This document shows, in pieces, positions 20,297 to 27,545 of a stretch of DNA of 64,000 bases. A program made the translations under genes and the position numbers. The DNA comes from Cycloclasticus sp. (GTDB lineage: Bacteria; Pseudomonadota; Gammaproteobacteria; Methylococcales; Cycloclasticaceae): positions 62,001 to 126,000 of the forward strand of contig PADC01000002.1 of NCBI GenBank assembly GCA_002700385.1, in the 5' to 3' direction. The stretch's first letter is position 1; each line of letters opens with the position of its first letter. A model generated the notes under the pieces. The model searched no databases. It saw nothing but the letters and a program-made list of their open reading frames with translations, and was not told where the DNA came from.

Positions 20297-20920
20297 ATGA
20301 ACCCTTTCTATCACCGCGCCGAATACCTGCTTAATGCCCCAAACCTTAAAACGACGCCAGAAGGTATTGAATATGAAGTTGCCTTTGCGGGGCGTTCCAA
20401 CGCTGGCAAATCAAGCGCGATTAATACACTAACCCACCAAAAGAGCCTTGCCAGAACGAGTAAAACTCCAGGTCGAACTCAGGAACTTGTGTATTTTAAA
20501 CTTGATGATCAGCGTTGCTTAGTCGACCTACCCGGTTACGGCTACGCTAAAGTACCCCCTAACGTTCAGCAAAAATGGCAAATTGAACTTGAGCGCTATC
20601 TAGAAAAAAGAAGCGCACTAAACGGGCTGGTTTTACTTGTGGATATTCGCCGCTCCCTTGGCGAACACGATATGCAAATGATTGAATACGCCCGTCATTT
20701 ACAGCTGGATATGTATATCGCCCTAACAAAAGCGGACAAACTCAGTCGTAATGCCGCTAAAAATACGTTATTTGCTGTTCAAAAATTACTGAACGATTCA
20801 GCAACTAATACACAGGTAGAATTATTTTCTTCCTTAAAAAAAGAAGGCATTAAAGAGCTTCATCACTGGCTCGATGAACACCTTAATACAGCAGAAATAA
20901 CAAACAAAAAAAAGCCCTAG
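20297..20920 (+). CDS. engB: Ribosome biogenesis GTPase EngB (YihA/YsxC)
   Basis: Small TRAFAC GTPase of 207 residues required for large-subunit assembly. Visible G motifs are G1 GRSNAGKSS (residues 32-40), G2 Thr in KTPGRTQ, G3 DLPGYGYAKV (around 79-88) and G4 TKADK. The C-terminal tail is Lys/Asn-rich. Its stop codon lies within the inverted-repeat terminator used by the minus-strand sRNA described at 20906-21020. It is convergent with polA, the arrangement found across gammaproteobacteria. The ATG at 20297 lacks a strong ribosome binding site. Confidence 0.96.
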   Translation: MNPFYHRAEYLLNAPNLKTTPEGIEYEVAFAGRSNAGKSSAINTLTHQKSLARTSKTPGRTQELVYFKLDDQRCLVDLPGYGYAKVPPNVQQKWQIELERYLEKRSALNGLVLLVDIRRSLGEHDMQMIEYARHLQLDMYIALTKADKLSRNAAKNTLFAVQKLLNDSATNTQVELFSSLKKEGIKELHHWLDEHLNTAEITNKKKP

Positions 20921-20943
20921 CGCTATACAAAATAGCCTAGGGC
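20906..20943 (-). terminator. Intrinsic terminator of the engB-polA intergenic sRNA
   Basis: Reading on the minus strand, 12 paired bases form a stem (GCCCTAG and GCTAT with ATAGC and CTAGGGC; one bulged base at 20921). The loop is 5 bases and eight T residues follow (20913-20906). It is a far stronger terminator on - than on +, because no T run follows on +. It overlaps the last codons of engB. Confidence 0.9.
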
Positions 20944-21020
20944 CAAATCAAATCCGATTATTGCTAACCGAAAACTTGCTCAAGGGGAGGGGGATAATGA
21001 GCAAGCATATCTGTAAAGAT
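20906..21020 (-). ncRNA. Predicted ErsA/Spot 42-like small RNA
   Basis: A candidate sRNA of about 115 nt lies downstream of polA on the same strand and convergent with engB. This is the position of spf (Spot 42) in E. coli and ersA in Pseudomonas. Seen in the sequence: a sigma-E-like promoter (21027-21054); a start near 21020; a hairpin with a perfect 8-bp stem (20998-21005 with 20975-20982) and a 15-nt loop reading UUAUCCCCCUCCCCU on the RNA, a pyrimidine-rich anti-Shine-Dalgarno type of loop; an A/U-rich stretch; and an excellent terminator. ErsA is known to be transcribed by the envelope-stress sigma factor in Pseudomonas. Homology to ErsA or Spot 42 is inferred from position and architecture, not from alignment. 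Confidence 0.72.
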
Positions 21021-21026
21021 ACGATC

Positions 21027-21054
21027 AATAGACGCTATCTTTCAGAAAAAGTTC
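21027..21054 (-). promoter_or_regulatory. Sigma-E (RpoE/AlgU)-like promoter for the sRNA
   Basis: On the minus strand GAACTT (21054-21049), a 16-base spacer and TCTATT (21032-21027) match the extracytoplasmic stress sigma consensus (GAACTT-N16/17-TCtgA type). A perfect inverted repeat, AAAGATA-N14-TATCTTT (21015-21042), overlaps the -10 and the expected start and may be an operator. A TTGAAC box also exists here but is badly spaced for sigma-70. Confidence 0.6.
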
Positions 21055-21128
21055 AAACCCTTTCATTTTTTTTCATTGTCGGCTTAATTTCCCCCGGGTA
21101 GGGTCGTTAACAAATAAACCATGAACGA

Positions 21129-23846
21129 TTAATGCGCCTCATCCCAATTCGTCCCAGTGCCAACATCAACCTCTAACGGCACATCTAAAGTAGCTGCTTC
21201 GCTCATTTTTTGCTGAATGATGTTTGAAGCCTGATCTAGAAAAGCATTTTTAACTTCAAACACTAATTCATCATGCACTTGCATCACCATTCGCACAGGC
21301 GGTTTAGCCTGCTGCAGCCAATCATCAACGGACAACATCGCTAATTTGATAATGTCGGCTGCGGTACCTTGCATTGGCGCATTAATAGCCGTTCTTTCAG
21401 CGTATTGTCTTCGCTGCCCGTTCTTGGCATTGATATCGGGTAAATATAATCGCCGACCAAACAAGGTTTCAACATAACCCTGTTCATGCGCCAGCGCTCG
21501 CGTTTCATCCATATAGGTTTTTACGCCCGGATAACGTTCGAAATACAGATTGATATATCCTTGCGCGGCGCCTCGGTCGATATCAAGTTGCTTTGCCAAA
21601 CCAAAAGCGGACATGCCATAGATCAGCCCAAAATTAATCGCTTTGGCAGAACGCCGCTGGTGCGTTTCCACCTGATCAAGCGGCACACCAAAGACCTCGG
21701 CCGCTGTTGCTTTATGCACATCCAACCCATCTTTAAATGCTTTTAAAAGCCCCGCATCTTGTGATAAGTGCGCCATGATACGCAGCTCAATCTGTGAATA
21801 GTCAGCCGCTAATACTGTGTAACCCGGCTCAGCAATGAAAGCTTGACGTATTCGTCGCCCTTCCTCACTTCTTATAGGGATATTTTGCAAATTTGGGTCG
21901 GAAGAAGATAAACGCCCCGTGGCCGCAACCGCTTGGTGATACGAGGTATGTACTCGCCCTGTGACTGGGTTAATTTGCTTCGGCAGTTTATCCGTGTAGG
22001 TAGAACGCAATTTACTTAAACTGCGGTGCTCAAGAATTAATCTGGGTAATGGAAAATCAACCGCCAAATCTTGCAAAACAGTTTCTGCTGTTGAAGGTTG
22101 GCCTTTAGGCGTTTTCTTTAAAACAGGCAAACCCAGTTTGTCATACAAAATTTCTTGTATTTGCTTTGGCGAACCCAGATTAAAAGGCTGGCCTGCCACC
22201 TCATGCGCCTGCGCTTCCAGCGACTTGATGTTTAAGGCCAGTTCAGCGCTTTGTTCGCTCAGCATCTGCTCATCAACCAGCACCCCGGTTTGCTCCATTC
22301 TTGCCAAAACGGGGATTAACGGCATCTCTATCGTTTGATAGACTTTTTTCAACGCCTCTATTTTTTCCAGTTTAGAAAAAAGCTCATGATGTAGACGCAA
22401 TGTTATGTCAGCATCCTCTGCTGCATACGGCGCGGCTACATCAACAGACACCTGATCAAAGCCGATTTGTTTTGCCCCTTTGCCGGCCACATCCTCATAG
22501 TGAATTGTCTCTTGCCCTAAATATTTTTCAGCCAAGGCATCCATGTTGTGCCGAGTCGCTGTGCTGTTCAACACATAAGACTGCAACATCGTATCGTGAC
22601 AAATCCCTGCCATATGGATGTCATGATTAACCAAGACATTCGCGTCGTATTTAAGGTTTTGACCCACTTTATGGACATTGTCTGACTCCAATAAGGGCTT
22701 TAATTGATCTAACACCCACTGTCGAGACAGCTGCTTGGGCGCACCCGGATACGCATGGGCTAATGGCACATAGGCGGCATGGCCTGCTTCCACGGCAAAC
22801 GAAACGCCGACGATCAACGCTTTGGTGTAATCCAAATGGGTTGTTTCAGTATCAAAAGCAAATAACTCGGCTTTTTTCAGCCTGTCTAGCCATACATTAA
22901 AACTGCTTTCATCAAGAAGCGTCTCGACCTTTAATTTAACCTTCTCTGGTAAAACCTCATCACCCGCTTCCTCATCGGCATGTTGTTGCTTTTCGCCTCC
23001 TGTTAATTGTTTTAACCATGAATTAAATTCAAGATGGCTTACCAAACTATGCAGCGTGTCGGCATCGGCGTCTTTTCTTACTAAATCTGTGGGTGCCTGA
23101 TGTAGCGGGACATCACATTTAATCGTTACCAGCTTTTTTGAAAGAGGGATAGCATCAAGGTGGGCGCGCAAACTCTCACCGACTTTACCGTTCACTTCAT
23201 CTGCTCTGGCTATAATTTCATCCAGCGAACCAAATTGATTTAGCCACTTTGCTGCTGTCTTGGGCCCTACTTTCGGCACCCCCGGGATATTATCTGAGGC
23301 GTCGCCCATCAACGCTAAATAGTCAATAATTCTTTCAGGCGACACACCAAATTTTTCCTTCACGCCTTCTTCATCCAACTGCTGGTTATTCATCGTATTG
23401 ATCAACGAAATTTTATCGGTGACCAATTGCGCTATATCTTTATCACCGGTTGAAATCACCACATTTAGACCCTCAGCTTCGGCTTGTTTAGCTAATGTAC
23501 CAATCACATCGTCTGCCTCCACACCGGCCTCCATCACTAATGGCAAACCCATCGCCTTAATCAACGCATGCAATGGCTTTATTTGCTCCCTGAGCTCTTC
23601 CGGCATTGACGCCCTATTTGCCTTGTAGTCTGCATACATCTCGTTACGAAAGGTTTTCCCCGGCGCATCAAAGATGACACCGAAGTAGGCCTCTGGATAG
23701 GTTGACACCAACTTTTTCAGCATATTGGTTACACCTAAAATGGCGTTGGTATAGTCACCTTTAGAATTTGTTAATAATGGCAGCGCATGATATGCACGAA
23801 AAAGGTATGAAGAGCCGTCAACAAGCACCAGCGTTTTGTTAGCCAT
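21129..23846 (-). CDS. polA: DNA polymerase I
   Basis: Family A DNA polymerase of 905 residues with all three domains. The N-terminal 5'-3' exonuclease/flap nuclease spans residues 1-~300 (VDGSSYLFRAYHA, GVEADDVIGTLA, LMGDASDNIPGVPKVGPKTA). The 3'-5' exonuclease has an intact FDTETTHLDY motif near residue 332. The polymerase has motif A DYSQIELRIMAHLS (~682), motif B RRSAKAINFGLIYGMS (~737) and motif C VHDELVFEV (~858). It functions in Okazaki fragment maturation and excision repair. The length is near that of E. coli Pol I. The start ATG has a weak site (GATATT). The region downstream on the same strand encodes the predicted sRNA. Confidence 0.98.
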   Translation of the reverse strand: MANKTLVLVDGSSYLFRAYHALPLLTNSKGDYTNAILGVTNMLKKLVSTYPEAYFGVIFDAPGKTFRNEMYADYKANRASMPEELREQIKPLHALIKAMGLPLVMEAGVEADDVIGTLAKQAEAEGLNVVISTGDKDIAQLVTDKISLINTMNNQQLDEEGVKEKFGVSPERIIDYLALMGDASDNIPGVPKVGPKTAAKWLNQFGSLDEIIARADEVNGKVGESLRAHLDAIPLSKKLVTIKCDVPLHQAPTDLVRKDADADTLHSLVSHLEFNSWLKQLTGGEKQQHADEEAGDEVLPEKVKLKVETLLDESSFNVWLDRLKKAELFAFDTETTHLDYTKALIVGVSFAVEAGHAAYVPLAHAYPGAPKQLSRQWVLDQLKPLLESDNVHKVGQNLKYDANVLVNHDIHMAGICHDTMLQSYVLNSTATRHNMDALAEKYLGQETIHYEDVAGKGAKQIGFDQVSVDVAAPYAAEDADITLRLHHELFSKLEKIEALKKVYQTIEMPLIPVLARMEQTGVLVDEQMLSEQSAELALNIKSLEAQAHEVAGQPFNLGSPKQIQEILYDKLGLPVLKKTPKGQPSTAETVLQDLAVDFPLPRLILEHRSLSKLRSTYTDKLPKQINPVTGRVHTSYHQAVAATGRLSSSDPNLQNIPIRSEEGRRIRQAFIAEPGYTVLAADYSQIELRIMAHLSQDAGLLKAFKDGLDVHKATAAEVFGVPLDQVETHQRRSAKAINFGLIYGMSAFGLAKQLDIDRGAAQGYINLYFERYPGVKTYMDETRALAHEQGYVETLFGRRLYLPDINAKNGQRRQYAERTAINAPMQGTAADIIKLAMLSVDDWLQQAKPPVRMVMQVHDELVFEVKNAFLDQASNIIQQKMSEAATLDVPLEVDVGTGTNWDEAH

Positions 23847-26459: not shown

Positions 26460-26678
26460 TTACTCCCGCTCAAGGTCTTCTTCTCGATCATCACTTTTTG
26501 TATGCTGTTCAACTTTTTTTTCAACCAATTGTTCATCTGTCTGTAAGAGCGTGACTTCTCTATCATCTTCGGCAAGAAACTCTAAAAACTCAAGACTCGG
26601 TTGCTCCTCAGAAAAGCAATTAAATGACACCCCCATGCAGATGAGAATGACCACGGCATAGACAACAGAACACCTCAT
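26460..26678 (-). CDS. Small acidic exported protein of unknown function
   Basis: Predicted protein of 72 residues. The N-terminal signal-like segment (VVYAVVILICMGVSFNCFSEEQ) may be a signal peptide, or a lipoprotein signal with Cys20. The remainder is dominated by Glu and Asp with charged clusters (EFLAEDDREV, DDREEDLERE). It starts by a 4-bp overlap with the stop of the DUF3619 gene (26675-26678) and ends 3 bp before the start of the DUF3106 gene, so it fills the operon exactly. It was not recognised as any family. An acidic exported protein next to the very basic DUF3106 protein suggests that they may pair, which is inference. Confidence 0.65.
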   Translation of the reverse strand: MRCSVVYAVVILICMGVSFNCFSEEQPSLEFLEFLAEDDREVTLLQTDEQLVEKKVEQHTKSDDREEDLERE

Positions 26679-27013
26679 CCCGCTGCCTCAATTTCATCTA
26701 GCCAGGTTATAAAATCCAACTCTTCATAAAGCTCTATTTCATCGTCCGATAACACCAAATTTATATCGTCAACAGCCAGCAAATTACCTGCAGGCAACGG
26801 CGAATTTGGCTGCCAAATCATTACTAACAGGGCAACAAAGGCGGTCACCGCAAACCCTCCTAAGCCCCAGGAGAATCTGTCTTTTTCAACTTCAGACACC
26901 GAATCAATGGCTGAATAACGGGCTTGCCTTAATGAGCTGCTAACCTGAGCAGAGAGTTGTTTCGCCTGTTCATCCAACGCGTCTTTGGCTTTTTTTTCAA
27001 TTACGTCTGTCAT
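26675..27013 (-). CDS. DUF3619-like single-pass membrane protein
   Basis: Protein of about 112 residues. A cytoplasmic helical N-terminus (MTDVIEKKAKDALDEQAKQLSAQVSSSLRQARYSAI) precedes one membrane segment at ~55-75 (LGGFAVTAFVALLVMIW). An acidic C-terminus follows (DDEIELYEELDFITWLDE). The layout matches DUF3619-type proteins encoded right after ECF-like sigma factors. A cytoplasmic helix, one membrane span and a periplasmic tail also describe an anti-sigma factor. The start ATG at 27013 lies just after the sigma stop (27015), with the GGAGATC of the sigma gene's end as its ribosome binding site. The anti-sigma role is inference. Confidence 0.75.
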   Translation of the reverse strand: MTDVIEKKAKDALDEQAKQLSAQVSSSLRQARYSAIDSVSEVEKDRFSWGLGGFAVTAFVALLVMIWQPNSPLPAGNLLAVDDINLVLSDDEIELYEELDFITWLDEIEAAG

Positions 27014-27014
27014 C

Positions 27015-27545
27015 TTAATGATCTCCAAGCAATTCTCGTATACGAGAATTTGCACGATTCAAATGTGTTTTTACACTGCCGTCAGAACAACTCATCGCTT
27101 TTGCCGTTTCCTTCACGGTAAAACCCTCCCATACACGAAGCAAAAACGCTTGCTGTTGCCTCAAGGGTAACTGCTTAATCGCCTCTACCAACTCCCGACC
27201 TGTATTTTCTCCAGCCAACTGATGAAGCGGTTCGGCAGCTGGTTGAGCCGGCTGATTCTGCAGTTGGCTTTGATGCTCATCCGAATCAGCACCAAACCAG
27301 CCCCTCCACCGAGAACGCACCGCAGAACGTCGATACCAATCCCGAATTTGGTTTTGTAAAATTCGGTGAAAAAGTGCCGGCCATTGTGTCGTGGGGCTGT
27401 TTGCATATTTACTCACAAAAGCCAGCATCGTTTCCTGCACTATATCCAAGGCTTCTTCGGTTTGCTTCGTTGCAAATTCAGCATGACAAAAGGCTTTCCT
27501 TTCCACACCGGCTAAAAATTTATCGAGCTCATCTTTGTTATCCAA
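27015..27545 (-). CDS. ECF-like RNA polymerase sigma factor
   Basis: Sigma-70 family protein of 176 residues with region 2 (ALDIVQETMLAFVSKY...RILQNQIRDWYRR, residues ~32-75) and region 4 (LVEAIKQLPLRQQQAFLLRVWEGFTVKETAKAMSCSDGSVKTHLNRA, ~118-168). A Gln/Pro-rich linker separates them, and region 3 is absent, so it is an ECF-type factor. It heads the set sigma / DUF3619 / acidic protein / DUF3106. This association is known from other proteobacteria, but the regulon is uncharacterised as far as I know. It does not look like RpoE/AlgU. The immediate upstream gap to dctQ is 114 bp and holds both divergent promoters. Confidence 0.9.
   Translation of the reverse strand: MDNKDELDKFLAGVERKAFCHAEFATKQTEEALDIVQETMLAFVSKYANSPTTQWPALFHRILQNQIRDWYRRSAVRSRWRGWFGADSDEHQSQLQNQPAQPAAEPLHQLAGENTGRELVEAIKQLPLRQQQAFLLRVWEGFTVKETAKAMSCSDGSVKTHLNRANSRIRELLGDH

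Follow-up and report, generated by a model that had tools for sequence, protein, structure and literature searches.

Three small RNAs (sRNAs) that have been studied separately, ErsA of Pseudomonas, sX13 of Xanthomonas and anti-hemB of Burkholderia, appear to form a single family, with a common locus, a common fold and, for the most part, a stress promoter. The RNA described here, found in a 64,000-nucleotide stretch of a genome of Cycloclasticus, an oil-degrading bacterium (hereafter the window, to which all positions refer), is an additional member of this already known kind of sRNA; the proposed class-wide link of ErsA, sX13 and anti-hemB is the new part. We consider it probable that the window RNA is a free-standing, trans-acting sRNA induced by RpoE, the C-rich loop of which acts on G-rich ribosome-binding sites, and that it represents the Cycloclasticus branch of a class-wide family.

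A predicted sRNA gene between polA and engB

The host genome (2.52 Mb, 99.99% complete) contains, on the minus strand of the window, a predicted sRNA of about 115–120 nt (20906–21022), as indicated by its fold, the alignment and covariance. R1, a covariance model built from 14 Cycloclasticus sequences with the promoter left out, matched it at G000:C8:82906-83023, which corresponds to window positions 20906–21023. According to the open reading frames of the window, the gene sits between polA and engB and is read from the polA strand, as expected for an sRNA of the ErsA type. The upstream neighbour, on the same strand (21129–23846, with the stop at 21129), was taken from its sequence to be polA, encoding DNA polymerase I, the name also used in an earlier sequence-only reading of this DNA; it gave tblastn matches in relatives, and the E. 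coli homologue is annotated polA. The convergent neighbour (20297–20920, plus strand), which served as a search query, presumably encodes a GTPase of the engB/yihA type, and the 3' end of the sRNA overlaps its last 15 nt in antisense.

The region 21020–20900 had a minimum free energy of −41.2 kcal/mol (z = −5.5), and none of 200 shuffled sequences was equally stable. Four hairpins were predicted, all on the minus strand. P1 (21006–21023) was defined by the fold and by covariation in the genus. P2 (20975–21005), defined by the fold and the alignment, consists of 8 bp closing a 15-nt C-rich loop, UUAUCCCCCUCCCCU, at 20983–20997, which we propose as the seed. P3 (20953–20972) was found by folding, and 7 of its 8 pairs display two-sided changes in the genus. 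P4 (20906–20944) is an intrinsic terminator, composed of a hairpin (20944–20913) and a tract of eight U residues (20913–20906). Upstream, a −35 box, GAACTT (21049–21054, minus strand), is followed after 15 nt by a −10 box, GTCTATT (21027–21033, minus strand), and the position of this promoter would place the start of the sRNA near 21020–21024.

The sequence-only reading had described a GAACTT-N16-TCTATT promoter, an 8-bp hairpin exposing UUAUCCCCCUCCCCU and a terminator with eight U residues. These correspond to GAACTT-N15-GTCTATT on the minus strand at 21054–21027 (N15 to GTC being the same as N16 to TCTATT), to P2, as judged from sequence and fold on the minus strand, and to P4 with its U-tract, respectively. 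The coordinates given proved correct to the base, with the element spanning 21054–20906 on the minus strand; hairpin P3, the three-loop relatives, sX13 and anti-hemB were absent from that reading.

Conservation within Cycloclasticus

A search with EngB covered 18 genomes of the genus and gave a full-length match in 15, in 14 of which the element adjoins engB. The exception was G015 (loci L030 and L127), in which no element was detected by R1 even with the filters off (best score 7.0 bits). In this genome, polA and engB are adjacent, and a different GC-rich hairpin (AAGGGAGG...CCTCCCTT) occupies the place of the RNA. Genomes G010, G011 and G012 (73–83% complete) yielded no R1 match and, with EngB, only weak matches to GTPases, and are therefore uninformative. 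The earlier reading was to be given up if the loop and promoter were lost in close relatives with the flanking genes kept; such loss was looked for and was encountered in one genome of 15 (G015), which does not refute it.

In the alignment of the 14 genus sequences, the four-helix structure was paired in 96.1% of cells, and two-sided (compensatory) changes were observed at 14 of the 31 pairs. These changes occupied 36 cells, compared with a mean of 8.7 in shuffled alignments (0 of 500 as high) and no more than 8 in slid versions. P2 is nearly invariant and its own covariation is small (1 of 8 pairs); its loop is C-rich in all 14 sequences, and the P3 and P4 loops are C-rich in none. Conservation begins at the −35 box: majority identity is 0.50 over the 40 nt upstream and 1.00 for GAACTTT, which is invariant in 14 of 14 sequences, followed by 0.63 for the spacer, 0.83 for the −10 columns and 0.78 for the RNA. 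The −10 columns start with GTC in ten sequences, CTC in two, ATC in one and GAC in one.

The alignment also bears on a possible coding function. The annotation of E. coli spf includes spfP, and in the window a frame of 14 codons starts at an ATG located before the P2 stem, as might be expected of a micropeptide or a dual-function RNA like spf/spfP. However, the length and reading of this frame shift with loop indels over the 14 genus sequences, several of which lack the frame altogether. We regard this explanation as highly improbable, and a conserved small ORF was rejected because the frame is not kept.

The element might alternatively be only the 3' end and terminator of the polA mRNA, lacking its own promoter and possibly giving rise to a 3'-UTR-derived RNA. 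The upstream edge, with its fully conserved −35 box and spaced −10 box, argues against this view, as does the position of polA in the genus. A polA gene was present within the examined 420 bp in 8 of the 15 genomes, G015 among them, so that 7 of the 14 RNA-bearing genomes keep promoter and RNA at engB with no polA within this distance. In three of these seven, polA is on the locus but about 0.8 kb away, and in the other four (one cut by a contig end) it is missing from the fetched locus; promoter and RNA are kept beside engB in all of them, and the element is therefore not just the end of polA. The earlier reading of a stand-alone sRNA gene at the spf/ersA locus is supported.

Promoter and sigma factor

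The genome encodes a single RpoE above the NCBIfam cut-off (300.7 vs 236.15 bits), and two weaker matches to the RpoE model, one inside the window, were also found. The genes behind rpoE were read, by their sequences, as rseA and rseC. The sequence upstream of rpoE, TTGAACTA-N15-GTCATTA (GAACTA-N15-GTCATTA), has the same form as the sRNA promoter. At this level of sequence form, the sigma-E-type promoter claimed from the letters of the window was supported, and it is of the sigma-E/AlgU type associated with ErsA. No exact match to GAACTTN{15,16}GTC was found at the rpoE locus, because rpoE has GAACTA. Over the 64 kb of the window, the same pattern gave two matches vs 0.57 expected, a number reached in 12 of 100 shuffles. 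The pattern alone is weak evidence; it is not rare by itself, and the weight of the promoter comes from its position and conservation.

Transcription might instead depend on sigma-70 or on another ECF sigma factor, in which case the element would be a C-loop sRNA and not an envelope-stress RNA, as sX13 may be. In PMC3771888, sX13 is reported to be constitutive and Hfq-independent, and an sX13-like locus identified below (L236) has no clear GAACTT-GTC pair. A second ECF-sigma-like gene is also located in the window, 6 kb from the sRNA (27015–27545; 28.7 bits, below the cut-off of the RpoE model). However, no sigma-70-like site was listed at 21020–21060 on the minus strand, and the promoter has the same form as the one upstream of the genome's own rpoE. 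Such an origin of the transcript is unlikely in our judgement, and control by RpoE remains the reading that we prefer. The second ECF-sigma-like gene is followed by a small membrane-protein-like ORF (26675–27055).

Distribution in the order

At E ≤ 0.01, R1 matched 50 of the 201 order genomes searched, 14 of them from the genus; the genome-wide score for genome G104 was 46.7 bits. Sixteen R1 loci from outside the genus were returned (L065–L080). engB was present on three of them (L065, L070 and L073), and the other 13 lacked both engB and polA. By eye, most of these 13 showed a strong terminator only, with L067 also containing a C-rich hairpin; we regard the 13 as unproven.

The sequence downstream of engB was then read at 47 engB loci from outside the genus, three of which (L125, L126 and L128) had been chosen as R1 matches. 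Twenty of the 47 were positive by eye. R1 matched 18 of these 20 at E ≤ 0.01 and, when four loci from tubeworm symbionts were added, 24 of 24 at E ≤ 1 (3e-9 to 0.64). A second covariance model, R2, was constructed from 14 order and 8 Cycloclasticus transcripts, in an alignment with two-sided changes at 24 of 29 pairs. The window RNA, which is itself in the model, scored 77.3 bits against R2, with the P1–P4 architecture and the C-rich P2 loop. Applied to all 47 loci, R2 gave 21 matches, 14 of which belong to its own alignment: the 20 loci identified by eye and L110 (17.4 bits). As far as R2 sees, nothing is present at engB in the remaining 26 loci, including L092, for which only 208 bp were available downstream. 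No element was visible at L091, where the locus is cut by a contig end. R2 also matched an RNA beside engB in nine of nine named loci, from a Cycloclasticus MAG (L013), a Methylococcaceae-labelled MAG (L012, the sequence of which was already in R2 under the handle L027) and seven symbionts of tubeworms or lucinids.

Ten of the 14 order loci in alignment A5 carry CCC in each of the P2, P3 and P4 loops, as in CUACUCA-UUUCCUCCCUUA-UGAGUAG. The loci of family f8 (L086, L095, L119, L122, L123 and L128) display a promoter-like GAACTT, one C-rich hairpin and a terminator; they resemble the Cycloclasticus layout but differ in stem sequences.

Distribution in the class

The class, which we take to be Gammaproteobacteria in the GTDB sense, with Burkholderiales, was sampled with 370 genomes, each at least 90% complete. 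With strict search filters, which lose weak matches, R2 matched 157 of the 370 genomes and 127 of 272 genera at E ≤ 0.01. We examined 68 of the matched loci, comprising the 28 best matches, one of which (L129, from G020) was already in R2, and 40 picked down the list with some skipped.

Searches with tblastn over about 1.5 kb on each side of the 68 loci identified polA on 47, engB on 52, at least one of the two on 61 and both on 38. polA was upstream on the same strand in 44 of the 47 loci carrying it, an arrangement that favours the view of the element as a polA 3' end. Conversely, 14 of the 68 loci (52 minus 38) have engB but no polA match, and, with the promoter boxes and the genus loci described above, we consider that view very unlikely and retain the reading of a separate sRNA gene. 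In L144, L172 and L209 the usual order is reversed: the RNA follows engB, shares its strand and is convergent to polA.

A GAACTT-like box (5 of 6 positions) followed by N14–17 to NTC was found upstream of the RNA in 59 of the 68 loci, with a spacer of 15 in 50 of them, whereas the same scan on 200 letter shuffles averaged 2.6 and never exceeded 8. This count is independent of R2, since the model has no promoter columns. Nine loci lacked the promoter form, and all seven loci with neither polA nor engB carried it.

When the 68 loci were searched again with R2, 78 matches were obtained. CCC was present in the P2 loop of 73, the P3 loop of 72 and the P4 loop of 66 of these copies, and in the P1 loop of 7; 56 copies had all three C-rich loops, 21 had two and one had a single C-rich loop. 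Two-sided changes were observed at 29 of 29 pairs (518 cells vs 116 in shuffled alignments), a result that is favoured by the fitting of the alignment to the structure of the model. Tandem copies of the RNA were seen at several loci: four in L181 (1249–2002), three in L183 (1216–1668) and two each in L133, L145, L149, L177 and L200; G445 has four at one place.

Genomes negative with R2 were probed by locus. EngB was used on 20 of them (17 listed negatives together with G344, G439 and G532), engB was found in 16, and one R2 match was obtained there (L224, 35.7 bits). PolA was used on 17, polA was found in 15, and R2 matched in two cases, L229 and L236. The other polA and engB loci of these genomes gave no R2 match, so that, as far as R2 sees, the presence of the RNA is patchy. 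The genome-wide figure of 157 of 370 should be taken as a minimum.

Relationship to ErsA, sX13, anti-hemB and Spot 42

The sequence-only reading had assigned the element to an ErsA/Spot 42 type. The ErsA-type part of this assignment is supported by the locus, the form of the promoter and the C-rich loop, but membership of the Rfam Spot_42 family did not hold, as the window RNA scored 15.9 bits against RF00021, for which the gathering score is 80. At gathering thresholds, Rfam gave no match in the window and none in 10 loci of the order.

In P. aeruginosa, the ersA locus follows polA. We assigned one genome (G344) as Pseudomonas-like by a match to PrrF above threshold (127.5 bits), taking PrrF to be a marker of Pseudomonas. 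At its locus L229, GAACTT-N16-GTCATAG is found after polA, followed by an RNA at the ersA position. R2, which contains no Pseudomonas sequence, gave a weak match to L229 (19.8 bits, E 0.0012 in 57.9 kb), and G344 was below the threshold in the genome-wide R2 scan. The putative link to ErsA comes from one genome and a weak score. The two RNAs have in common the locus after polA, a GAACTT-N15/16-GTC promoter (N16 in L229), a strong terminator and C-rich segments. However, the C-rich runs of L229 are in the P3-like and terminator loops and the P2 C-loop is missing, whereas the reverse is the case in Cycloclasticus. ErsA is reported to depend on sigma-22 and to act, aided by Hfq, on the targets algC, oprD and amrZ (PMC5819304, PMC8395346), and a review describes it as a functional orthologue of Spot 42 (PMC8395346).

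According to PMC3771888, sX13 lies downstream of polA, is 115 nt long and forms stem-loops with C-rich loops, which repress mRNAs with G-rich motifs near their start sites. The same paper also names the alpha-r7 RNAs, which are found at polA in Alphaproteobacteria. The window RNA is likewise downstream of polA and about 115 nt in length, but it has one C-rich loop (P2) where sX13 has three. In the class, the loop regions of L154 and L236 hold CCCCU, CCCCA and UCCCCCU in that order, which fits the printed wording for loops 1–3 of sX13 (PMC3771888), although in L154 the fold pairs one C of CCCCU. The loop pattern of sX13, compared here through its printed description, fits members of the class.

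Forty of the 68 class loci were submitted to Rfam, and three of them (L134, L156 and L136) exceeded the gathering score of anti-hemB, RF02837 (51.7–57.9 bits), over most of the R2 match. Anti-hemB thus looks like a branch of the R2 family. The window RNA differs in this respect, with 17.5 bits for anti-hemB (Burkholderia RNA 7) vs a gathering score of 49.5. A search of its own genome for anti-hemB at E ≤ 10 returned 11 matches below the cut-off, the best of them (22.7 bits) elsewhere and none at the sRNA locus, a result that carries no weight because 13 of 14 control genomes matched at the same limit. Anti-hemB corresponds to ncS04, a 105-nt RNA listed in PMC5688073 among the strongly expressed sRNAs of B. 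cenocepacia biofilms.

Spot 42 shares the locus, the order in E. coli being polA, RNA, yihA. The best match of R2 in the E. coli polA-yihA region (L169, 499–610) covered spf from end to end, but scored only 11.9 bits, and no C-rich loop is seen in the fold of E. coli spf. Spot 42 is under the control of CRP.

We suggest that ErsA, sX13, anti-hemB and the Cycloclasticus RNA are likely to be branches of one ancient family, ancestrally controlled by RpoE, fixed between polA and engB and equipped with three C-rich anti-Shine-Dalgarno loops; this family would occur in nearly half of the gammaproteobacterial genera sampled, with tandem amplification in some of them. That Spot 42 is a derived member which stayed at this locus but lost the loops is a tentative proposal, which we think rather doubtful. 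In the literature searched, we found no statement that ErsA, sX13 and anti-hemB belong together in one class-wide family, no paper treating ErsA and sX13 together and no paper with a title concerning a Cycloclasticus sRNA.

Proposed mechanism and targets

In the mechanism that we propose, envelope stress would lead RpoE (sigma-E), with core RNA polymerase, to transcribe the sRNA of about 115–120 nt from GAACTT-N15-GTCTATT. The transcript is predicted to fold into its four hairpins, leaving the 15-nt P2 loop (UUAUCCCCCUCCCCU) single-stranded as the seed, and P4 would terminate transcription and provide a U-tail that may serve as an Hfq site. By analogy with sX13 and ErsA, the P2 loop may pair with G-rich Shine-Dalgarno or enhancer sequences (AGGGGAGG-like) and thereby lower the translation of the targets; the C-rich loop thus probably blocks the translation of other genes. 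The common form of the family has C-rich loops in P2, P3 and P4; Cycloclasticus has only that of P2 and may have lost the other two.

The suggestion that targets could be predicted from G-rich ribosome-binding sites met with little success. The pattern AGGGGAGN{3,11}ATG occurred at 20 places in the genome vs 11 for a reversed control, and no target was established. Seven of the 20 places open an ORF of at least 30 codons and 13 open none; of the seven, one is antisense to the sRNA and two resemble internal ATGs. The ORFs at the pattern include some that we take, from their sequences, to be pdxA-like and transport-ATPase-like genes. The target prediction is weak and was kept out of the evidence.

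Implications

If ErsA, sX13 and anti-hemB are indeed one family, findings on targets and on the use of Hfq would become transferable among them, and an envelope-stress RNA could be annotated in many genomes. It would then also become possible to test where Spot 42, the textbook sRNA of this locus, came from.
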